NCBI GenBank assembly: GCA_017412585.1 | Contig: JAFPXK010000033.1 | Span: 1 to 46,709 of the forward strand | Length of the DNA stretch: 46,709 nucleotides | Reading direction: 5' to 3' | Source: Oscillospiraceae bacterium | GTDB lineage: Bacteria > Bacillota > Clostridia > Oscillospirales > Oscillospiraceae | In this document: piece by piece, positions 5 to 9,456 of the stretch | Numbering within the stretch: the first letter of the stretch is position 1 | How the letters are laid out: each line of letters opens with the position of its first letter | Translations under genes and position numbers: made by a program | Notes under the pieces: model-generated | Told to the model about the DNA's origin: nothing | What the model saw: only the letters and a program-made list of their open reading frames with translations | The model's database searches: none

Positions 5-1106
5 ATTTCAATCCACCCGCCCCTTGCGGGGCGGGACATTACAGCAGCTTGCCTCCGCCCTTAAAGACCTTATTTCAATCCACCCGCCCCTTGCGGGGCG
101 GGACCAATGTGGTCGCATTCTGCGTCATAAAACGCCATATTTCAATCCACCCGCCCCTTGCGGGGCGGGACAGTGTAAAAGTCCACGATCTGGGCGCGGA
201 TGGAATTTCAATCCACCCGCCCCTTGCGGGGCGGGACCAGCCGCAGACAGTAGGAGCAGACAAGGCCCCAATTTCAATCCACCCGCCCCTTGCGGGGCGG
301 GACGAGGAGTCATTATAGACCATAGCTGTCACCTCAATTTCAATCCACCCGCCCCTTGCGGGGCGGGACGTTTTTTAGGGGAGACGCGCGCGCAAACATG
401 GAGATTTCAATCCACCCGCCCCTTGCGGGGCGGGACCTGGTAATCTGCGGCACTTGATAAGTAGTTTCGGATTTCAATCCACCCGCCCCTTGCGGGGCGG
501 GACCTGGGCGTCTTCCACCAGCTCCTTCGTCACGGCATTTCAATCCACCCGCCCCTTGCGGGGCGGGACACTTTCAAGACGATAACTGTTGATAATGGCT
601 CTATTTCAATCCACCCGCCCCTTGCGGGGCGGGACCCAGCTTGCGCTGTCCGGCGCAGGCGGCGCACATTTCAATCCACCCGCCCCTTGCGGGGCGGGAC
701 CCCCACCAAGACCGACAGGCTGATAAACCGCATATTTCAATCCACCCGCCCCTTGCGGGGCGGGACGTATCCCCGGATTGCTACTTCATTGTTCGCCTGA
801 TTTCAATCCACCCGCCCCTTGCGGGGCGGGACCATTGCAGGTCGTCAAGTGTTTGTTGTTGGTGTTATTTCAATCCACCCGCCCCTTGCGGGGCGGGACA
901 AATGGCAAATGTTAAGCTGCGGGACGGCGCTTTCATTTCAATCCACCCGCCCCTTGCGGGGCGGGACTTACTTCACCGGTTTTTGGATCGGTCACCGGCT
1001 CTATTTCAATCCACCCGCCCCTTGCGGGGCGGGACTCCACGACAGCCTGAAGGAGGCCCAGTGGCTTATCGACATTTCAATCCACCCGCCCCTTGCGGGG
1101 CGGGAC
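5..1106 (-). CRISPR. Type I-C CRISPR array, 17 repeats, continues past window edge
   Basis: Seventeen copies of one 33-nt repeat start at 5, 72, 139, 205, 271, 337, 404, 471, 537, 603, 668, 734, 800, 867, 935, 1003 and 1074; I see no variant among them. On the minus strand each repeat is GTCC, a GC-rich stem (CCGCCCC, loop GCAA, then GGGGCGG) and the tail TGGATTGAAAT, the classic I-C form. Sixteen complete spacers of 32-38 nt lie between them. Bases 1-4 belong to a further spacer, so the array is longer than seen. The handle orientation and the cas genes to the right mean transcription runs leftward from about 1107, so the newest spacer is the one at 1036-1073 (38 nt, the longest). Several spacers are open in one frame, as phage coding fragments would be; their sources cannot be named from here. 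Confidence 0.98.
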
Positions 1107-1280
1107 AGCAAAAGTTCACAAAAATCGGTTGCAAACTTTTACACTTATAACAATTTTTGCCCTGTCAGGGCAGTGCGGCTCGTGTTTTCTCGGGCAGCAC
1201 TGGTTATTTTCGGGGCACGATCGTCTATATTCCCGGTGCGAACCGATGGGAAAACAGATGATCGCTTCCCCTTCGCACGG
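1107..1280 (-). promoter_or_regulatory. CRISPR leader between cas2 and first repeat
   Basis: This 174-nt stretch separates the cas2 stop from the leader-proximal repeat and is AT-richer near the repeat. Read leftward it contains a perfect GCCCTG-T-CAGGGC palindrome (1159-1171), a TATAAG-like -10 candidate (1144-1149) and an inverted pair AAAAGTT/AACTTTT (1110-1116 and 1133-1139) just before the first repeat. I could not place a good -35 box at normal spacing, so the exact start of pre-crRNA is uncertain. Its position makes it the leader that should drive the array and guide new spacer insertion. Confidence 0.7.
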
Positions 1281-1571
1281 CTAAATCATCAGCACGCCTT
1301 CCGGCTCATAACCCGCTTTGACGCCGAAGTGCTCTATTCTGGTCTGGTATTTATTGCCCAGATAGTAGAAGCGTAGGCTGTCTTTTGAGGCATCCATCAG
1401 CGTCAGCAGCGTGGCTTGCAGCTTTTTGCACTGGGCGGCGTCCACAACGCATTCAAACACTGAATTTTGCACGCGCTGCCCATAATTGACGCACTGTTTC
1501 GCAATTTGGCGCAGGCGTTTTCTGCCGCCGGCATCCTCCGTATTCACGTCATAGGTGATCAAAACCATCAT
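1281..1571 (-). CDS. cas2: CRISPR-associated endoribonuclease/integration factor Cas2
   Basis: This 96-residue protein begins MMVLITYDVN, the ferredoxin-like first strand of Cas2 with the conserved Asp at residue 8, and it has the usual family length. Cas2 dimers bridge two Cas1 dimers in the spacer-integration complex. Two adjacent ATGs are possible (1571 and 1568); I chose the first because GAGG lies 8 nt upstream of it. An in-frame extension to 1655 runs into cas1 and has no support. The gene follows cas1 by 10 nt and is the last gene before the leader. The C-terminus (EPEGVLMI) is typical of I-C Cas2. Confidence 0.96.
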   Translation of the reverse strand: MMVLITYDVNTEDAGGRKRLRQIAKQCVNYGQRVQNSVFECVVDAAQCKKLQATLLTLMDASKDSLRFYYLGNKYQTRIEHFGVKAGYEPEGVLMI

Positions 1572-1581
1572 ATTCCGTTCC

Positions 1582-2613
1582 TCATTTCCACAAAAAGGGC
1601 GGGTAGGCATCCACGTCGCCCCGCAGATACCGGGCCAGCAGCAGCGCCTGCACATAGGGTGCCAGCCCCCAGGCGATTTTCTCCTGTAGGAACGGGTGCT
1701 GGATGGTTTCCTGCTTTCGCTCCTGCCACGCCTTCAGGAATTTGTGGCGGCCCTCGTCCTCCATGCGCACGGCGCCGCTCTCCTCCGTCCGGAAATCCGA
1801 AGGTGTTACGATGCGATTATTGATGGCGGTCAGCACAAAGCGGTCCGCGAAGGCCGGGCGCAGCTCCTCCATCAGATCCAGGGCCAGAGATCGCCGCCCC
1901 GGACGGTCCCGGTGCAGAAAGCCCACGTAGGCGTCAAGGCCTACACTCTCCAGCGCGGAAGCGCAGTCATGGGCCAGCAGGTTATAGGCGAAAGACAGCA
2001 TGGCATTAACGTTGTCCAGGGGCGGGCGGCGATTTCTCCCGCGGAAGAAAAAGTCCTCCTTGCTGCGCAGGATCATCTGGTCAAAAACGCCGAAGTAGGC
2101 CGCGGCGGCTACGCCCTCGATGCCCCGCAGAGAATCCAGCTGCTGCTCCTCCAGGGTCAGGGCCAACTGCTGTTTGATGATCGCAATGGCGTTGGCAAAG
2201 TCCTGTTCGCTTATGCGGGGGCGGTGGTCGCGGACGGTGCGCTCCAGGCTCCACCGGGCATTATAGAGTTTTCCGGCAATCATGCACCGGGCCACGCGGC
2301 AGCTCTGGGCCGGATCGTCCGCCACCCGGTATTGCTGGCGGCGAAGCAGCACATTGCCGCTGGCGATGCCCGCCGTACGGGCCAGGAATTTCCCTCGCGG
2401 CGTACAGAACGCAAGGCCGATGCCCCGCTCTGCACACGCGCCCATCAGCGCCGGAGACGCACCGGAATAGGAAAAGGTCACGATGCTTTGCAGCGTATGG
2501 AGGGGATAGCGGGCCACCTGTGTTTTGTCCCGGTTGGCCACCACGTTTTCCCCATCCAGGGAGAGGTAGACATCTTCCGAGGTGACGAACAGTGTGTTGA
2601 GGAGATGTTTCAT
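1582..2613 (-). CDS. cas1: Type I-C CRISPR integrase Cas1
   Basis: This 343-residue protein is the metal-dependent integrase that inserts new spacers at the leader end. The expected active-site residues are visible: Glu166 in LRGIEGVAAAAYFGVFD, His234 in GFLHRDRPGRRSLALDLMEE, and the acidic cluster around Asp246 and Glu249. The N-terminal beta domain (about 1-95) and C-terminal helical domain (about 100-340) fit the usual length of about 340. The ATG at 2613 overlaps the cas4 stop as ATGA, which signals translational coupling and fixes the start. The open frame continues to 2889, but that part lies inside cas4 and is not coding here. Confidence 0.97.
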   Translation of the reverse strand: MKHLLNTLFVTSEDVYLSLDGENVVANRDKTQVARYPLHTLQSIVTFSYSGASPALMGACAERGIGLAFCTPRGKFLARTAGIASGNVLLRRQQYRVADDPAQSCRVARCMIAGKLYNARWSLERTVRDHRPRISEQDFANAIAIIKQQLALTLEEQQLDSLRGIEGVAAAAYFGVFDQMILRSKEDFFFRGRNRRPPLDNVNAMLSFAYNLLAHDCASALESVGLDAYVGFLHRDRPGRRSLALDLMEELRPAFADRFVLTAINNRIVTPSDFRTEESGAVRMEDEGRHKFLKAWQERKQETIQHPFLQEKIAWGLAPYVQALLLARYLRGDVDAYPPFLWK

Positions 2614-3266
2614 AGCGTATCCTTTACGGCATCCGCCAGGTAGGCTTCGGCAGAGCGATTTTTCAGCAGTTTGGGCAGGCAGATTTCTTTCAGCGAGCAG
2701 GCCTGGCAGGCTTTGGTGGGCTTTACCTTGGGGGTGCGGCCCCGGCGGTATAAGTCGTGCATCTGGGCAAGGTTTTCCTGCACGGCGCGGCGAAGCTCCG
2801 TCGTAAGCGGCACCGTCTCCCGGCGGCGCGTCTGGCCGTAAAACAGCGCCCCCTCCGGGATATCGCAGCACAGCATCTCCTCCAGGCACATAGCCTGACC
2901 GCAGAGCTGTAACCTGTCGGCATCCGTGGCTTTTGCCGTCCCCCGCTTATATTCCACGGGATAGGGCTGCCACAGGCCGTCGCGGCCTGCCAGGGGGATG
3001 CCGGACGCATCCCGCCGGAACTCCAGCACGTCGCATTGCCCGCTGACGCCCAGGGTGGGAGAATGGAAATCTACGCCTCGGGCCACGATCAGGTCTCCCC
3101 TGCTCTCCCGGAGGGAGTCGTCGTGGGCCCGGGCGTGGAGGAGATTGCCCTCCACCGTGCGCAGATTGTCCGCCCACTGGTGCTCGATATGGATCAAGGC
3201 CCACTGACGGCGGCAAAAAGCAAAATGCTGGAGGCCGGAGAGGGGGAGGTAGTCGTCGGGATGCAT
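2610..3266 (-). CDS. cas4: CRISPR-associated exonuclease Cas4
   Basis: This 218-residue RecB-like nuclease is thought to trim and PAM-select prespacers together with Cas1-Cas2. Four cysteines that could hold the iron-sulphur cluster are present: Cys18 (FAFCRRQ) and Cys187, Cys190 and Cys196 (ACQACSLKEIC). The PD-(D/E)XK core is visible as Asp79 (QCDVLE) and Glu105/Lys107 (VEYKRG). The start at 3266 is preceded by GGAGG at 7 nt. It sits 12 nt after cas3 and overlaps cas1 by 4 nt, so the cas4-cas1-cas2 adaptation module is one translational unit. Confidence 0.96.
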   Translation of the reverse strand: MHPDDYLPLSGLQHFAFCRRQWALIHIEHQWADNLRTVEGNLLHARAHDDSLRESRGDLIVARGVDFHSPTLGVSGQCDVLEFRRDASGIPLAGRDGLWQPYPVEYKRGTAKATDADRLQLCGQAMCLEEMLCCDIPEGALFYGQTRRRETVPLTTELRRAVQENLAQMHDLYRRGRTPKVKPTKACQACSLKEICLPKLLKNRSAEAYLADAVKDTL

Positions 3267-3278
3267 TTAATTGCCTCC

Positions 3279-5531
3279 TTAACAGCAAAGAAACTGGGAT
3301 TCTGCTTTCAATTCATCCAAAACCCCTGCCATGACGCCGAGAAAGCTATCGTAGCGCAGGTTCCAGTCAAAAACCCCCTCAGCCAGTTCTTGCAGACGCA
3401 GCTTGCTTGCTCTCGTCCTGCGTATGGAGATGCCAAAGCGCTGTATGTCTTTCCAATCCGCGCAACCATAGCGTAGTTTTTGCTTGAGGGCTTCATCTGC
3501 GATGGCCAGCACGGTATCATCGGGGATAACCTTGAATTTTTCGCACACTTCGGGGAAATTATACTTCTTTTCAGCAGCCATCAGTGTCTGCGAAATCGCT
3601 GTGCCTCGTACCAGTTCACGGCGGATTGCATCAGTGCAAAGATGGGGGCTGATCGTTGTTCCCCTGCGGAAATAATCCTCCAGCACACATTGTGCGTCCT
3701 GCAATGCCGGATTCTGGGTAATCCATTTCTGTTCTTGCAGCTTAAAGGTCCAAATCACCGCGTCGGAATACTCTCCGTTGCGCCCCACCCGGCCTGCAGC
3801 CTGTAGCAGAGACAGCAGGGACGCGAGTTCCCGAAAGCCTGTACGGAAGGAAAAATCCACTCCCGCCTCCACACAGGATGTGGCCACAAGCGTCCAGTCA
3901 TTCTCCGGGTCACTCGGCGAAGCTTTTGCTCTGCCGGCATCCAGTCGCTCTTTTACCCGCTGAATTACCCTTTCTCTGTCTGCAGCACATAGAGCGGTAG
4001 ACAGATGCATTACCTTGCCATTCAGCAGATCGGCATCCGCATCATCCCCGTAAGAGGCACGCAGGCCGTCTGCCAACACGGCTGCTGTCTGCACTGTGTT
4101 GGCAATCACAATACGAGGCCCGGGCGCTGCTTTAATCGCGGCATACAGTGCCTCACAAGATAACGGCTTTTCGAAATGGGATATCTTGATTCGATGCTGC
4201 TCATACGTTGCAAGGCGGCTACGAAGCGCCTGCGGCACAAGTTGCGGCACCAGCCGCGCATCCGCTGTAATCTCCGGCAAATTCCAGAATTCCACAAGAG
4301 AACCGGAGGCAAGCAGCCAATAGCAATCCCATTCATCCGCCAGAATCTGCATCCAGCGCCACGCCAGGGGCAGCAGCTTCACCGGAAGGGCCGCATGGGC
4401 TTCATCCAGAAAAATAACGCTTCCGGGCAACTCATGGAGCCTTCGCAGGGCGGAGGGCATATTGGAGGCAATAGTCTCAAAAAATGCAACGGCAGTGGTC
4501 ACGATGATAGGAGCCCTCCACTGAGCGCTGTAAGCGCGAAACAGCGGGTCCTGAAAATCCGCTCTGTGGTGGATTGCCGCCACCACTTCCTCTGGCTTCT
4601 CGCCAGGCAGCACCAACGCCTCCCGATACACCTTCACCGACTGACTTATGATATTCGTAAATGGCAGGACCACAAAAATCCGCCGGGCACCTCGCTCTTT
4701 GGCCTGGCGCAGCAGGTGGGCCATGACGACGGTGGTTTTGCCGGAACCCACAGGGCTGTCACACGCGGCAATTCTCTCGCAAATCGTCGCGTCACGGCAT
4801 TCCCTGTACATCTCAGTGCGGAGTTCATTTCGTTGACCTGAGGCTGTAAAGCGAGTGTTTACATACCAATCGAGCTGCGCCAGTCTCTCCTCGGCGCGGA
4901 GCTGCGGCGCAGTCATCTTGGCAGGGTATTGATTGTAATGTATTGCCGCATCAGTGTGGTCCGCATCTGCCAGGCACGACAGGGCCATACGGCAAAAAAC
5001 TCTCGCGTCCCCTTGAACCCCCTCTGTCTTGCCGGGCTGGGGAGGAAGCTCCAGCATAGAGCCATGTACGCCTAAAAGCGAATCCAGCTCGTCGCTTACT
5101 TTTTTCCTGACATCCGGGGACTTATCACGAAAGCAGGTTTTTTCGTGGATATACTCCTCCATTAGGCTGGGCAGGCCGCGATGATGCGAATACACCATGA
5201 GGGCTGGAATCATCCCGGCATTGTCGGGGAACTTCAACAGCGCTGCCGCACCAGCATCCACATGATTGGTGGGAAGTCTTTTCCTCCCATCTATCTCATG
5301 CAGTACCTCCTGGTTATCCCTCGAGAGCTTACCTAAATCGTGATAAGCGCCGGCATACGCCGCGCACTGCATCAACGCCGCAGCCTCCTGCGGGGAGCAG
5401 TTGGGACGGCCATCTGCCTTGCAGGCAGCCGCCCTGGCGTTGGCGACTGCCTCGGCGGTCACATGGGAAACGTGATTCACATAGGACTGCGCAGGCACAC
5501 CGTCCCGGGCGCTATGAGCAAGGTACTCCAT
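3279..5531 (-). CDS. cas3: Type I CRISPR helicase-nuclease Cas3
   Basis: This 750-residue effector is recruited to Cascade R-loops to unwind and degrade target DNA. An N-terminal HD nuclease domain (about 1-230) shows His6, His20, the YHDLGK signature (His64-Asp65) and His90. An SF2 helicase follows with Walker A (DSPVGSGKT, about 259-267), DEAH at 376-379, and motif VI QAAGRVGR at 577-584. Length and domain order are those of a standard one-piece Cas3. The ATG overlaps the cas7 stop by one base (TGATG). It lies downstream of cas7, not at the head of the operon as is usual for I-C; this order recalls type I-B, although the effector genes are I-C. Confidence 0.96.
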   Translation of the reverse strand: MEYLAHSARDGVPAQSYVNHVSHVTAEAVANARAAACKADGRPNCSPQEAAALMQCAAYAGAYHDLGKLSRDNQEVLHEIDGRKRLPTNHVDAGAAALLKFPDNAGMIPALMVYSHHRGLPSLMEEYIHEKTCFRDKSPDVRKKVSDELDSLLGVHGSMLELPPQPGKTEGVQGDARVFCRMALSCLADADHTDAAIHYNQYPAKMTAPQLRAEERLAQLDWYVNTRFTASGQRNELRTEMYRECRDATICERIAACDSPVGSGKTTVVMAHLLRQAKERGARRIFVVLPFTNIISQSVKVYREALVLPGEKPEEVVAAIHHRADFQDPLFRAYSAQWRAPIIVTTAVAFFETIASNMPSALRRLHELPGSVIFLDEAHAALPVKLLPLAWRWMQILADEWDCYWLLASGSLVEFWNLPEITADARLVPQLVPQALRSRLATYEQHRIKISHFEKPLSCEALYAAIKAAPGPRIVIANTVQTAAVLADGLRASYGDDADADLLNGKVMHLSTALCAADRERVIQRVKERLDAGRAKASPSDPENDWTLVATSCVEAGVDFSFRTGFRELASLLSLLQAAGRVGRNGEYSDAVIWTFKLQEQKWITQNPALQDAQCVLEDYFRRGTTISPHLCTDAIRRELVRGTAISQTLMAAEKKYNFPEVCEKFKVIPDDTVLAIADEALKQKLRYGCADWKDIQRFGISIRRTRASKLRLQELAEGVFDWNLRYDSFLGVMAGVLDELKAESQFLCC

Positions 5532-6418
5532 CAGGGGTTGACCAGGTCTGTGCAGCTGCTGAGACGGCTGAGCAACGCCTCAGGCAAAGCGGTTTTATCC
5601 TTATAATCGCTCCATGTCTCCGACGGATCGGCGGGATTGCCCACACGCTCCGGCGTCAGCGCTTCCAGCAACAAGTAGTCGGGGCAACTGCCCAGACTGT
5701 TCTTATGCTCCATGTACCACGCATGGCGCAGGCGTACATCCGGCCGGATGGCAGAGCGGTTTAAGTCATATAAATAGGGAATCGCCAGTTTCAGCAGTTC
5801 AATGTCTCTTGCCGTGCAGCCGCTCTTGCCGGCAAAGTTGGGATTCACAAAGAAGGGCATGCAGTAGACGCCGTGCTCCACAACACGATAGGCCAGCGGT
5901 GCCATACCGGCATTTTTGCCCTCCTGGACACCTGCCTTATTGGTGTTGGTGTGCCGAACGATACGGACAGGCGAGAGAGAAAGGCCCATGCCCATCTGGA
6001 CAACACCTGTTTTGATGTAACCCTTGTTGCCGCCCTCCTCCAGGAAGGTATTTCCAAACACGCGGGCATCCCAATACTTTTGTACGAAGGGGCTGGAGAG
6101 GAATTTCTCCTGGTCGAACGTGTTGATGCTCTTTCCCATCTCGGCTTTGATAGCGTTTCTGTCGCGTCCGCGGCTCTCCAGGATCTGATAGCGCTCCGCC
6201 TCCCGGTGGAACTCTTCCGGCAAGGCCTGGAAAAACGGTGCGTCATGCTCCCCGATCAGGTCACGAATCTTCCGCTTTACAGACACGGGAGAAATCTCGC
6301 CGCAGCCGTTATCGCGCATTCTGGGATCGGACTCATGGTCAGGGTCGCCATTGGGATTGGAGTTCACCACTTCAATGACAAATAAACCTGTGGCGCGCTT
6401 CAGTTCGTTTTTCTCCAT
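5531..6418 (-). CDS. cas7: Type I-C Cascade backbone protein Cas7 (Csd2)
   Basis: This 295-residue protein should polymerise along the crRNA to form the Cascade backbone. The N-terminal signature GLFVIEVVNSNPNGDPD and the following KRKIRDLIG are diagnostic of the Csd2/Csh2 Cas7 family, and length matches Csd2 (about 290). The start at 6418 has an AGAAAGGAG ribosome binding site and lies 4 nt after the cas8c stop. The open frame extends to 6637 in cas8c sequence but that part does not resemble the family. As in other I-C systems there is no cas6, so crRNA processing falls to Cas5. Confidence 0.95.
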   Translation of the reverse strand: MEKNELKRATGLFVIEVVNSNPNGDPDHESDPRMRDNGCGEISPVSVKRKIRDLIGEHDAPFFQALPEEFHREAERYQILESRGRDRNAIKAEMGKSINTFDQEKFLSSPFVQKYWDARVFGNTFLEEGGNKGYIKTGVVQMGMGLSLSPVRIVRHTNTNKAGVQEGKNAGMAPLAYRVVEHGVYCMPFFVNPNFAGKSGCTARDIELLKLAIPYLYDLNRSAIRPDVRLRHAWYMEHKNSLGSCPDYLLLEALTPERVGNPADPSETWSDYKDKTALPEALLSRLSSCTDLVNP

Positions 6419-6422
6419 TTCA

Positions 6423-8510
6423 TTATTCTCCTTTCTCAAAACAGGTCTGTTCTTCCGACTGCTGCATTTGCAATGTGTCTTTCTTCGGGAAGGACGCAAG
6501 ATAACCAATGAATAGCTGCGCCTTCTCCGCATCCGTAAAGCGCACATCCGGCGTAAGGGCGGGCAACAGCTTGTCCGCAATTCGGCTGAACACGGACAGA
6601 TAATAGCCTGCCGGTGGACTGTACATCTGCTCACCACCCTGCTTTTCCGTCACCATGGAAGCGCTTTGATGGCTCCTTGCCCAATTGAGATAGGGCTTCA
6701 TTCTTTGCATTAGCTGCACAAGGGTGCGGTTCGGGAACTCTGCTGCGGAGGTGTATAAGCTTCCGCCAATCAACTGCGGCAGCTCGTCGTATTTGTTGCC
6801 CCTTACGCACACGCAGTAAAGCTCATGCAGATAATCGGCGGCCTTCAGCAACTGGCCCAACAGGTAGGGGTACTCGTTCATATAATCATCCTTTCTGCAA
6901 TCCAACCAGAATAGAAGCATGCCCATGAGTGCCAGCGCGGCCCGCAGCTCCGCCATTGGTCGGAGGTCACGTCGCCACGCACTGTTCAGCCGTTCTCCGG
7001 CGTATACCGCAAGCGGCGCAGTGTTTTTGACGAGAAGGCGTAAGTCGTGCCGCAGCACCGACGCGGGAACACCGAAAAAGAGCTCCATGCCGTGAAAGGC
7101 AGGCACCTCCTTGTGCTGCTCGCCTACCGCCGTTCCGTCTCTTTTCCAAACGCGATTAAGCGTAAAAGGGGTTCGAAGAGGAAACAATACCCAGGGGTTT
7201 CCGAAGCGGAAGGCAGGTAAGTTGTCCGCCGCCTTTTGCCAACAATCGCTCTGACGGATGATTTCCTCCGGCGAGGCATTGTAGGTATAAACCACCTTTG
7301 AGCGCGCCTTATCCAGCTTGCGTATAACGAAAAACTGAATCCACTCCGGGTAACATTCCGGGTCAAGCGTCTTTGTGCGTGTCAGATATTCCGCAAAGTC
7401 TTTCGCCTTTGCTTCAAACAGTCCTTCATCAGTCTCCTCGTCAGCGGGTTTCTTGAAGAAAGCGGTCATCGACGGATAGTCTGCAGATAGGCGGGATGGG
7501 AACACGAACATAGCCTCGTTTTTATCAGTTTGAACCCACGTCTTGTCCTCTCGCTCTCCACGGGACACCCACTCCAGTGCCGCGCTGAGCCCCAATCGTT
7601 TCGACTTGGAAAGCGGATAGGATTCGCCCTCAAAGCAGCCATACCGGGATTGACAGGGCTGACCGCGAAACATGGTGCGCAGCGACACCTCAAAGCCGGC
7701 GTTCAGCTTCACGCTGGGCATTGGCTCGTCAAGAGGAATATAGTCCTCACCAAAAGCATCTACTGCGTTCGTCGCTTGTTCCGAATGGGAAAGACTGTCG
7801 GCTTGGAGCAGAGCTTCATTGAGCTGCGCGGCAAACTTGGGGCCTGCGGTAGAATATCCCTCATCTATCAGCTCTTCTGTGTCCAACACCGCAGAAATCT
7901 TACCCGTCTCTGCCTTCTCCTGTTCCTTTTTTGTAGGCAAATAAAACAGGATTTGCAAGGCAGGGACAACGCCGTCCCTATCCTCAAGCATCTCAAATGC
8001 CTTGCGCTCCAACTCTCTATGCAGCACAGTGGGGTCCCGGAAGGGTTCCACCGCACGAATCAGCGACGTAAGCAGCGCATGTCTTTCGCCCAACAATGAC
8101 AGCAGTTCCTGGGGTCTGGAAGTGATGCACTGCCTGTATTTGCTACAAAATTTCTCCGTCCAGTTGTTGGAAATACACCAGGTGTGAATAAGATCGATGT
8201 CCAGGTTCTCTCCCTGGGTGGCAATCAGTGCAGAGATTGCCTTTGCCACGTTTTCATCCGTGATGCGATACAGCGGCGTCAAATTCATCGCTGGAAAAGA
8301 GCCCTGCTTATCACCGTAGCGACGGATATTCACCCCCTTTTCCGAAGAAATGCTGAGCAATCTTGAGACGCGGTTTCCATCAAGGACGACCTGGATACAC
8401 GGCGCATCCCTTTTGATCTTTGCGATGGGGCCGTATCGGTGATGCCAGGGTGATGTGGTAACATGCGCATTCTTCAACGCTGTCGCCAGTTGGTTGATTT
8501 CATTGATCAT
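6423..8510 (-). CDS. cas8c: Type I-C Cascade large subunit Cas8c (Csd1), long divergent form
   Basis: This 695-residue protein should recognise the PAM and help recruit Cas3. It is placed by context (between cas5 and cas7) and by Csd1-like segments: an N-terminal region with RVSRLLSISSEKG and GVNIRRYGDK, a central FPLRTPFTLNRVW, a late MNEYPYLLGQLLKAADYLHELY and a C-terminal DAEKAQLFIGYLASF. Csd1 proteins are often about 570-640 residues, so this one is long. The extra length may lie around residues 190-290, where charged, low-similarity sequence occurs. It overlaps the cas5 end by 11 nt. I am confident of the role but less so of a close match to canonical Csd1. Confidence 0.88.
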   Translation of the reverse strand: MINEINQLATALKNAHVTTSPWHHRYGPIAKIKRDAPCIQVVLDGNRVSRLLSISSEKGVNIRRYGDKQGSFPAMNLTPLYRITDENVAKAISALIATQGENLDIDLIHTWCISNNWTEKFCSKYRQCITSRPQELLSLLGERHALLTSLIRAVEPFRDPTVLHRELERKAFEMLEDRDGVVPALQILFYLPTKKEQEKAETGKISAVLDTEELIDEGYSTAGPKFAAQLNEALLQADSLSHSEQATNAVDAFGEDYIPLDEPMPSVKLNAGFEVSLRTMFRGQPCQSRYGCFEGESYPLSKSKRLGLSAALEWVSRGEREDKTWVQTDKNEAMFVFPSRLSADYPSMTAFFKKPADEETDEGLFEAKAKDFAEYLTRTKTLDPECYPEWIQFFVIRKLDKARSKVVYTYNASPEEIIRQSDCWQKAADNLPAFRFGNPWVLFPLRTPFTLNRVWKRDGTAVGEQHKEVPAFHGMELFFGVPASVLRHDLRLLVKNTAPLAVYAGERLNSAWRRDLRPMAELRAALALMGMLLFWLDCRKDDYMNEYPYLLGQLLKAADYLHELYCVCVRGNKYDELPQLIGGSLYTSAAEFPNRTLVQLMQRMKPYLNWARSHQSASMVTEKQGGEQMYSPPAGYYLSVFSRIADKLLPALTPDVRFTDAEKAQLFIGYLASFPKKDTLQMQQSEEQTCFEKGE

Positions 8511-9177
8511 CTTCCCGCCCCCCCTTCACCGGAAATGTCAAAACACCGTGGCGGATGACAAGGTCAGTATCATAACTCGGGCAAAATGATGTTTGATAGC
8601 CCTGCGAAAACGTCTGACGAAGCATCGATGGGATTACGATACCGTCAACGTCCTTGCACACCTCCGTCTCTGCTCGGAAGGGGCCAAAATAGGAGGGGGT
8701 AAATTCCTGCCAGCCCAGGCAGACGGTTGCGTACATCTGGCCCCGGGACAGGCGCCTGTTGAAAATCTCCTGATAAGCGTGGCCGGGCGACGTTGTACGG
8801 CCGTCCCACTGCCTCGCCGCTTCCGGCAGCTTTGCCTTGTCCGGATTAGGTCTTGCCACCGCGTAGAGCCGGTAACATACGTCCGTCAGCACTGTGGCGT
8901 ATAGCTGGTAGGCGTCCCCCTTTTTTATATTCTGTGGATTACGCAACGGGCCACCATAATTCGTGGCGTAACTGTGGTATCGAAGAGGCGCACAGATTTC
9001 CACCTTTATGGGAACAATCTCCACCGCTGGCCCCCACAGAATGGCTTCAAAGATGCCCTTTACCGCCCCATAGGTGGGCGCGGGATAGGATACCGGTGAA
9101 TCACCCGTATCAGGCCGTGTCCATAACGCTGTGTTACCCGCAATTTCCAGCTGAATGGGGTACTCTTTTTGAAGCAT
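8500..9177 (-). CDS. cas5: Type I-C crRNA endonuclease and Cascade subunit Cas5
   Basis: This 225-residue RAMP-fold protein takes the place of Cas6 in type I-C: it cleaves the repeat and stays on the 11-nt 5' handle. Family features include YPAPTYGAVKGIFEAILWGP (31-50), the YATNYGGPLRNPQ loop, VLTDVCYRLYA, and YQEIFNRRLSRGQ. The segment where many Cas5d proteins carry an Arg/His-rich catalytic stretch reads KKGDAYQLYAT here, so the active-site layout may be modified. It is the first gene of the cas operon, with GGGAGG 6-7 nt before the ATG and a promoter about 60 nt upstream. Confidence 0.94.
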   Translation of the reverse strand: MLQKEYPIQLEIAGNTALWTRPDTGDSPVSYPAPTYGAVKGIFEAILWGPAVEIVPIKVEICAPLRYHSYATNYGGPLRNPQNIKKGDAYQLYATVLTDVCYRLYAVARPNPDKAKLPEAARQWDGRTTSPGHAYQEIFNRRLSRGQMYATVCLGWQEFTPSYFGPFRAETEVCKDVDGIVIPSMLRQTFSQGYQTSFCPSYDTDLVIRHGVLTFPVKGGREDDQ

Positions 9178-9236
9178 AGCTTTCCTCCCTTCAACATATC
9201 AAATATTATTATGATTATCTTTGCCGCTCATGATTT

Positions 9237-9272
9237 CGTTTCCAGAATACAGCAGTCTTTTCTCGCTGTCAA
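9237..9272 (-). promoter_or_regulatory. cas operon promoter
   Basis: Read leftward, a perfect -35 TTGACA (9272-9267) is separated by 17 nt from a -10 TATTCT (9249-9244). The start would fall near 9237, giving a 5' leader of about 60 nt before the cas5 ATG with its GGGAGG ribosome binding site. An AT-rich stretch upstream of the -35 could act as an UP element, and it overlaps the crRNA-like RNA target at 9283 onward. Confidence 0.85.
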
Positions 9273-9282
9273 TAGTAATAGC

Positions 9283-9319
9283 TTCATGTTTTGAAAATTA
9301 TTATGTCACTAAGACTAGA
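9283..9319 (+). promoter_or_regulatory. Predicted Cascade operator: PAM plus partial protospacer for the crRNA-like RNA
   Basis: Bases 9283-9285 are TTC, the known type I-C PAM. They are followed at 9286 by ATGTTTTGAAA, identical to the first 11 guide bases of the crRNA-like RNA (9403-9413). Guide positions 13-15 also match; positions 12 and 16-17 do not. Matching stops after that, so an R-loop confined to the seed region is expected: binding without full interference. The site is 10 nt upstream of the cas -35 and its far end abuts the -35 of the RNA's own promoter. Confidence 0.82.
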
Positions 9320-9348
9320 TTGACAATAGGCCATTTCTTAGGTACAAT
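9320..9348 (+). promoter_or_regulatory. Promoter of the crRNA-like RNA
   Basis: TTGACA at 9320-9325 and TACAAT at 9343-9348 are separated by exactly 17 nt, close to the sigma-A consensus. The predicted start is the A at about 9355. There is no ribosome binding site or credible ORF directly downstream, which fits a promoter for a non-coding RNA. It is divergent from the cas promoter. Confidence 0.85.
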
Positions 9349-9369
9349 CTCCTCATCGGCAAGGTGCCG

Positions 9370-9402
9370 GATATCGCCGTCAATCGCGGTGTGGATTGAA
9401 AC
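9370..9402 (+). repeat. Orphan degenerate type I-C CRISPR repeat
   Basis: The last 11 nt, TGGATTGAAAC (9392-9402), differ from the array handle TGGATTGAAAT only at the final base. As in the array, a stem sits directly before the handle: CGCCG (9375-9379) pairs with CGGTG (9387-9391, one G-U), with a 7-nt loop. The stem sequence is unlike the array stem and shorter (5 against at least 7 bp), so structure is kept while sequence is not. It runs opposite to the main array, some 8 kb away. Confidence 0.85.
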
Positions 9403-9416
9403 ATGTTTTGAAACTT

Positions 9417-9456
9417 AGCAGAAAGAGCACATCGAGAATGGTGTGTTCTTTTTGCT
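9417..9456 (+). terminator. 3' hairpin and terminator of the crRNA-like RNA
   Basis: Bases 9417-9431 pair with 9442-9456 over 15 positions with two G-U pairs, around a 10-nt loop. The inner 10 bp (AAAGAGCACA with TGTGTTCTTT) followed by further T residues would work as an intrinsic terminator. The hairpin begins directly after the 14-nt guide. Confidence 0.7.

Follow-up and report, generated by a model that had tools for sequence, protein, structure and literature searches.

Positions 9320-9455 of the window, the whole stretch of 46,709 nucleotides analyzed here, very probably encode a CreR, an RNA predicted to guide the cell's own type I-C Cascade to positions 9286-9302 and to repress the cas operon. 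This reading is drawn from sequence and is supported by a promoter consensus, a repeat stem with its handle, a guide, a hairpin, a unique PAM-flanked match, and guide-target covariation across loci. CreRs have been described as crRNA-like cas-regulating RNAs (mini-CRISPRs) with partial complementarity to a cas promoter (excerpts of PMC13131331, PMC12737573, and PMC12948488), and the available excerpt of PMC13131331 names them for types I-B, I-E, and V-A. Like the CreRs of these excerpts, the unit in the window is crRNA-like, carries a degenerate repeat outside an array, adjoins the cas genes, and shows partial complementarity to the cas upstream region beside a PAM; the mechanism we propose for it is also the published one. 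Unlike the CreRs reported there, it belongs to subtype I-C. It may also stand apart in holding a single repeat, with a terminator-like hairpin in the place of another, and a six-base mismatch register is documented here over many loci. No report of a CreR in type I-C was found among the literature matches listed, which were mostly titles and the beginnings of abstracts, and the primary CreR paper may hold an I-C entry. We consider the RNA to be of a known kind; its occurrence in type I-C appears new and is accompanied by unusually clear evolutionary evidence.

A solitary crRNA-like unit adjoins a divergent type I-C operon

The window corresponds to contig C25 of a 1.66-Mb assembly. On its minus strand, the genes run in the order cas5-cas8-cas7-cas3-cas4-cas1-cas2, followed by a CRISPR array:

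8500..9177, minus strand: cas5 (Cas5c-like), which opens the operon predicted to be regulated
6423..8510, minus strand: cas8c (variant; PADLOC PDLC01562, 608 bits)
5531..6637, minus strand: cas7 (profile matches)
3279..5531, minus strand: cas3 (profile matches)
2610..3266, minus strand: cas4 (profile matches)
1582..2889, minus strand: open reading frame with cas1 (Cas1c; profile matches); the bounds are those of the frame
1281..1655, minus strand: cas2 (profile matches)
5..1127, minus strand: CRISPR array with 17 repeat copies ending GTGGATTGAAAT, extending to the contig end

The assignment to type I-C follows from Cas8c (PADLOC, 608 bits), a Cas1c above the NCBIfam cut-off, and repeats ending GTGGATTGAAAY. 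Cas5 and Cas7 score below the NCBIfam I-C cut-offs (61.6 versus 85 bits and 121.2 versus 182.25 bits, respectively), Cas8 has no Pfam or NCBIfam match, and cas3 is the fourth gene of the operon, after cas7, and not the first. The predicted operon is a divergent type I-C variant. Upstream of cas5, the opposite strand carries the putative RNA gene:

9320..9348, plus strand: predicted small-RNA promoter TTGACA-17-TACAAT (11/12 consensus)
9375..9391, plus strand: degenerate repeat stem CGCCGT-caatc-GCGGTG (6 pairs including G-U), abutting the handle; predicted Cas5 processing hairpin
9392..9402, plus strand: type I-C 5' handle TGGATTGAAAC, the only place in the assembly where the repeat end occurs outside an array
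9403..9419, plus strand: first 17 nt of the guide, ATGTTTTGAAACTTAGC, read from the sequence
9418..9455, plus strand: terminator-like hairpin where a second repeat would stand

The promoter boxes (TTGACA at 9320-9325 and TACAAT at 9343-9348) are separated by a 17-nt spacer. Of the 22 copies of GTGGRTTGAAAY in the assembly, 17 lie in the window array, 4 are regularly spaced on contig C40, and the last is the solitary handle. Rfam returned a single CRISPR repeat match, below threshold (16.8 versus 45 bits). A simple terminator scan of the region found no terminator; the hairpin at 9418-9455 is called from the folding z-score (z = -6.2 for 9404-9455) and from a separate hairpin detector, which agrees. 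On its far side, the element is neighbored by a galactarate-dehydratase-like gene and a tagaturonate reductase gene.

The guide matches a PAM-flanked site upstream of cas5

The predicted target of the guide lies between the unit and the cas operon, ~105 nt upstream of cas5:

9283..9285, plus strand: TTC, PAM of the predicted regulatory target, read from the sequence
9286..9302, plus strand: protospacer of the predicted target, ahead of cas5; it agrees with the guide in 14 of its first 15 positions and differs at position 12

The first 11 bases of the guide, ATGTTTTGAAA, are repeated at 9286-9296 directly after the TTC. The promoter, the I-C handle, the guide, and this 11-base recurrence had all been proposed in the first-pass annotation, and each was recovered at the same positions; the match proved longer than the 11 bases given there, as positions 13-15 pair again beyond the mismatch at position 12. 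The combined PAM and seed pattern, TTYATGTTNTGAAA, occurs once in the 1.66-Mb assembly, at the target itself. Across 20,000 dinucleotide-shuffled versions of 9181-9392, the 11-mer was present 5 times, in no case preceded by a TTC. A chance match was rejected on the basis of these shuffles and, more firmly, of the covariation described below, since the guides of the relatives match their own targets.

Two candidate cas promoters were identified around the target, both by consensus only:

9297..9326, minus strand: candidate cas promoter 1, TTGTCA-18-AATAAT (10/12 consensus); the target spans about -12 to +8
9244..9272, minus strand: candidate cas promoter 2, TTGACA-17-TATTCT (10/12 consensus); the target would lie just upstream of its -35 box

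The window target thus covers one of the two candidates. Across the 29 loci with an accepted element (see below), the target overlapped a consensus promoter on the cas strand in 10, compared with 6.1 expected from random placement, and in 2 of these 10 (L191 and L211), the promoter hit was the element's own. The site is located only 13-50 nt before cas5 in L024, L025, L081, L198, and L228. An overlap of the targets with predicted cas promoters is, overall, weakly supported.

Two side observations concern promoters other than that of cas5. In L191 and L211, the target overlaps the RNA's own predicted promoter, and some such RNAs may limit themselves. In L232 (cas-oriented 60-600), the target is near the -35 box of a promoter-like sequence that precedes an open reading frame of 85 codons, and the RNA gene is situated between this frame and cas3; the operon may, therefore, begin with an unnoticed small gene.

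Guides and targets covary across cas5-linked loci

Scanning the species genomes with the window's Cas5 yielded 20 relative loci, six of which (L006, L007, L013, L017, L024, and L025) carry an exact handle in divergent orientation within 450 nt of cas5. No handle was found near cas5 in the other 14 close relatives, where the available upstream stretch was only 538 nt in L009 and 418 nt in L010. Arrays were listed for four genomes (L011, L014, L015, and L020, all without the element), and they end in the same GTGGATTGAAAT. The guides of all six relatives are unlike that of the window, and each matches its own upstream region beside a TTC or a TTT. When the guides were exchanged in a 7x7 swap, the own seed scored 10, 10, 10, 10, 9, 10, and 10 of 10 (for the window, L006, L007, L013, L017, L024, and L025, respectively), as opposed to a mean of 6.0 and a maximum of 8 of 10 seed positions among the 42 foreign pairings. 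With shuffled guides, the score of the own guide was attained in 0, 1, 0, 0, 23, 0, and 2 of 3000 trials, in the same order. The first-pass annotation had named independent drift of seed and target in related genomes as the outcome that would speak against it; the opposite was observed, as the guides vary and each fits its own target.

The survey was then widened to 148 cas5-linked loci, comprising the window, the 20 first-round loci, 1 locus from a class-wide Cas8c scan (L027/L032), 19 loci from a 100-genome scan, and 107 Cas5c loci. The window's Cas8 protein was found in 3 of 400 genomes of its family besides G000 (2 of them partial), and the PADLOC Cas8c profile in 5 of 391 genomes of the class besides G000 (1 of them strong); since these matches were too few, sampling was performed with the Cas5c profile PDLC01264. 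This profile was present in 35 of 150 family genomes and 80 of 249 phylum genomes, from which 107 upstream regions were fetched. The Cas5c samples leave out hits weaker than 1e-15, G000, G003:C17 (the same contig as L010), a repeat of G066, and partial hits of G955 (two) and G1140. The 100-genome scan gave 31 places in 29 of the 100 genomes; of the places given with loci, 19 were used, and L064, which is L025's own place, was excluded. Fewer than 700 nt were available upstream in 8 of the 148 loci.

Exact solitary handles, defined as TGG[AG]TTGAAA[CT] outside arrays, numbered 28, in 28 of the 148 loci. A seed match of at least 9/10 at a TTC, TTT, or CTC site within 600 nt was obtained for 24 of the 28 own guides and for 5 of 756 foreign pairings, and handles with one mismatch added 5 of 38 with such a seed match (foreign pairings, 7 of 1396). 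To avoid building in the answer, the search was repeated without the PAM and without masked positions. In this PAM-free, mask-free search, at least 13 of 17 bases were matched in 21 of 28 own pairings compared with 40 of 756 foreign ones, and the 21 sites were flanked by TTC (16), TTT (4), or CTC (1) and by no other trinucleotide. L024, L025, and L154 were accepted only by the masked, PAM-restricted test (12/17 otherwise), and the best PAM-free site of L025 differs from its accepted site. No clear target was found for 4 of the 28 exact handles (L196, L213, L238, and L248).

In type I Cascade, guide and target are left unpaired at positions 6 and 12, where the bases are turned out of the duplex. 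Within the 21 PAM-free sites, mismatches occurred in 15 of 21 at position 6 and in 16 of 21 at position 12, compared with 10 of 294 at the other 14 positions of 1-16 together, as expected of a guide held in Cascade. These two positions look unconstrained (71-76% mismatch). The match fades from position 17 onward, with mismatches in 8, 16, 16, and 19 of the 21 sites at positions 17-20, and position 18 is, therefore, uninformative on its own. Relative to the cas genes, 12 of the 21 protospacers are on one strand and 9 on the other, an arrangement that fits DNA targeting and not antisense pairing to an mRNA. The 29 accepted guides are all different, the closest pair being identical at 14 of 17 positions; the 120 nt preceding cas5 differ among all 148 loci, and no 40-mer near cas5 occurs in more than one of the 29 accepted loci.

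Occurrence and architecture of the element

Accepted elements were identified in 29 of the 148 loci, distributed over the family Cas5c sample (10/36), the phylum sample (8/71), the first round (6/20), and the 100-genome scan (3/19), together with L027 and the window. The remaining 119 loci are without an accepted element, indicating that it is dispensable. For the 24 exact-handle cases with a target, the element is placed between cas3 and cas5 in 9 and upstream of cas3 in 6; in 8, no cas3 was seen upstream on the available stretch (only 301 nt in L024), and in 1 (L151), cas3 is off the fetched stretch.

A promoter consensus ending 12-34 nt before the handle was detected in 19 of 29 accepted loci, compared with 2.7% of 1563 control positions; the window itself counts as a miss in this range, its -10 box ending 43 nt before the handle. 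A terminator follows the guide in 25 of 29 loci (13.4% of controls), and both signals occur together in 16 of 29 (0.1% of controls). In addition, 20 of 29 loci have a stem of at least 4 pairs directly adjoining the handle (21% of control positions), and a G directly precedes the handle in 28 of 29. Because promoter, stem, and terminator are enriched around the handles relative to controls, the predicted unit is composed of a promoter, a mini-stem, the handle, a guide, and a terminator.

Proposed mechanism of cas autorepression

In the window, transcription of the RNA would start near 9355, and Cas5 would cut it at the stem, before the handle, at about 9391/9392. The processed RNA would then be loaded into Cascade, which may bind upstream of cas5 through ~14 base pairs in the six-base register. 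Such pairing is probably too short for a full R-loop, so that no Cas3 cutting would be expected and Cascade would act on the target as a transcription roadblock only, leaving the cas genes repressed. As published, the CreR model has array crRNAs competing for Cascade and anti-CRISPR proteins lifting the repression (excerpts of PMC13131331, PMC12737573, and PMC12948488). By the same logic, array crRNAs would compete with the CreR-type RNA for Cascade, so that any shortage, occupancy, or anti-CRISPR blockade of Cascade would raise cas expression.

The first-pass annotation had put forward an autoregulator of the CreR type for type I-C. The regulatory part of this proposal is strengthened by the guide-target covariation and by the register at positions 6 and 12, and the subtype has to be qualified, given that the operon is a predicted divergent I-C variant. 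A CreR-type reading that covers both this divergent system and canonical I-C appears to be the best one. We see about even chances for a broader proposal, namely that an unreported CreR, with guide and target coevolving in the six-base register, is common in the type I-C systems of the window's phylum (18 of the 107 sampled Cas5c loci). According to this proposal, the element of canonical operons would often be placed between cas3 and cas5, as it is in 9 of the 24 target-bearing exact-handle cases, so that the feedback would act on Cascade and the adaptation genes and cas3 would be controlled separately.

If true, these findings would extend RNA-guided cas autorepression to subtype I-C, where it would have persisted through changes of guides and targets. 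The 29 guide-target pairs would then form a natural record of the minimal pairing for Cascade binding without cutting, that is, ~16-17 bases next to a TTC or TTT with positions 6 and 12 free. Such a record would be useful for I-C-based gene repression and for predicting which systems regulate themselves; it would also suggest how these cells could answer anti-CRISPR proteins.

Cas effectors are also reused as transcriptional repressors with a short guide in the repression exerted by Cas9 with scaRNA or tracr-L. Those systems involve type II Cas9 and tracrRNA-derived RNAs, whereas the window would rely on a type I Cascade and a repeat-derived RNA.

Alternative explanations

The window unit shares its anatomy with CreA (CreTA/CrePA), in which the RNA of a degenerate ectopic repeat directs Cascade to a partially complementary promoter (excerpts of PMC9458426 and PMC12737573). 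It could accordingly be an antitoxin RNA guarding an unseen toxin (a CreT RNA or a CreP protein) in the cas5 leader, such that the loss of Cascade would harm the cell, yet we regard this as improbable. CreA represses a toxin, whereas the window target is upstream of cas5 and not in a toxin-gene promoter, and no toxin gene was seen at the window locus. A 19-codon open frame on the minus strand does start inside the target, but the leader between the target and cas5 spans only ~105 nt and the next gene is cas5, although a very short toxin RNA could still fit. Suggestive in favor of a CreA-type arrangement is L211, which combines two repeats, a 17/17 guide match within the element's own promoter region, and downstream DUF3791 and DUF3990 genes. 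In this locus (G1108:C296, cas-oriented ~340-1210), the two repeat ends are 69 nt apart, the own-promoter match of the first guide is flanked by TTT, and cas3 follows the two DUF genes; this may be a toxin-type module guarded by a crRNA and embedded in a type I-C locus.

Three further explanations were rejected on the evidence against each. Given its lone repeat end beside a cas operon, the unit might be the relic of a decayed array, consisting of the last repeat and a spacer from the cell's own DNA, and self-matching spacers do exist. However, the unit has its own predicted promoter and terminator-like hairpin, its match stops after ~16-17 bases instead of covering a full spacer, the mismatches are concentrated at positions 6 and 12, and the arrangement recurs in 29 loci with different guides (closest pair 14/17), making a relic very improbable. 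Equally improbable is an RNA anti-CRISPR (Racr), here a lone repeat unit that a mobile element left behind and that titrates Cas proteins. Racrs are solitary repeats behind a promoter, as is the window unit, and a type I-C Racr has been tested (excerpt of PMC10651486). They reside on viruses or plasmids, and the viral units are described in the same excerpt as not associated with cas genes, whereas the window element adjoins cas5 with a guide-target pair at the cas operon, and the galactarate-dehydratase-like and tagaturonate reductase genes on its far side point to a chromosomal placement, judged from these metabolic neighbors. Finally, the window guide is complementary to a cas-strand transcript, provided that this transcript starts upstream of the site, and an ordinary antisense small RNA could pair with the cas mRNA leader without any Cas protein. 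Against this stand the 9 of 21 loci in which guide and cas mRNA are of the same sense, as well as the PAM flank and the mismatch register, neither of which is expected of RNA-RNA pairing, and we assign antisense control a nearly negligible probability. A CreR remains our preferred reading of the unit.

Plasmid-borne and atypical loci

A Cas5c match was present in 52 plasmid records, 10 of which were fetched and scanned over their first 4400 nt. Within these stretches, 9 of the 10 plasmid I-C loci showed no element; L254 has an array ending AGGATTGAAAC, and L256 has two handle-like strings without a target. A weak candidate was detected at ~4105 of L259 (plasmid pTM3 of the alphaproteobacterium Tistrella mobilis), just before cas5c, with a TTC, a 9/10 seed, and 11/17 bases matched.

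Two of the loci without a guide target, L213 (cas-oriented ~1000-1040) and L238 (~1250-1290), carry a perfect repeat hairpin and handle shortly before the predicted cas3 start. In these loci, Cas5 might cleave the cas mRNA leader itself at this hairpin. In L025 (3001-3503; Merdimmobilis hominis Marseille-P2769T), the 6.5-kb locus yielded no cas8 match and cas5 is split into two frames, while the handle, guide, and seed match remain, suggesting either a regulator that outlived its operon or a recent break.
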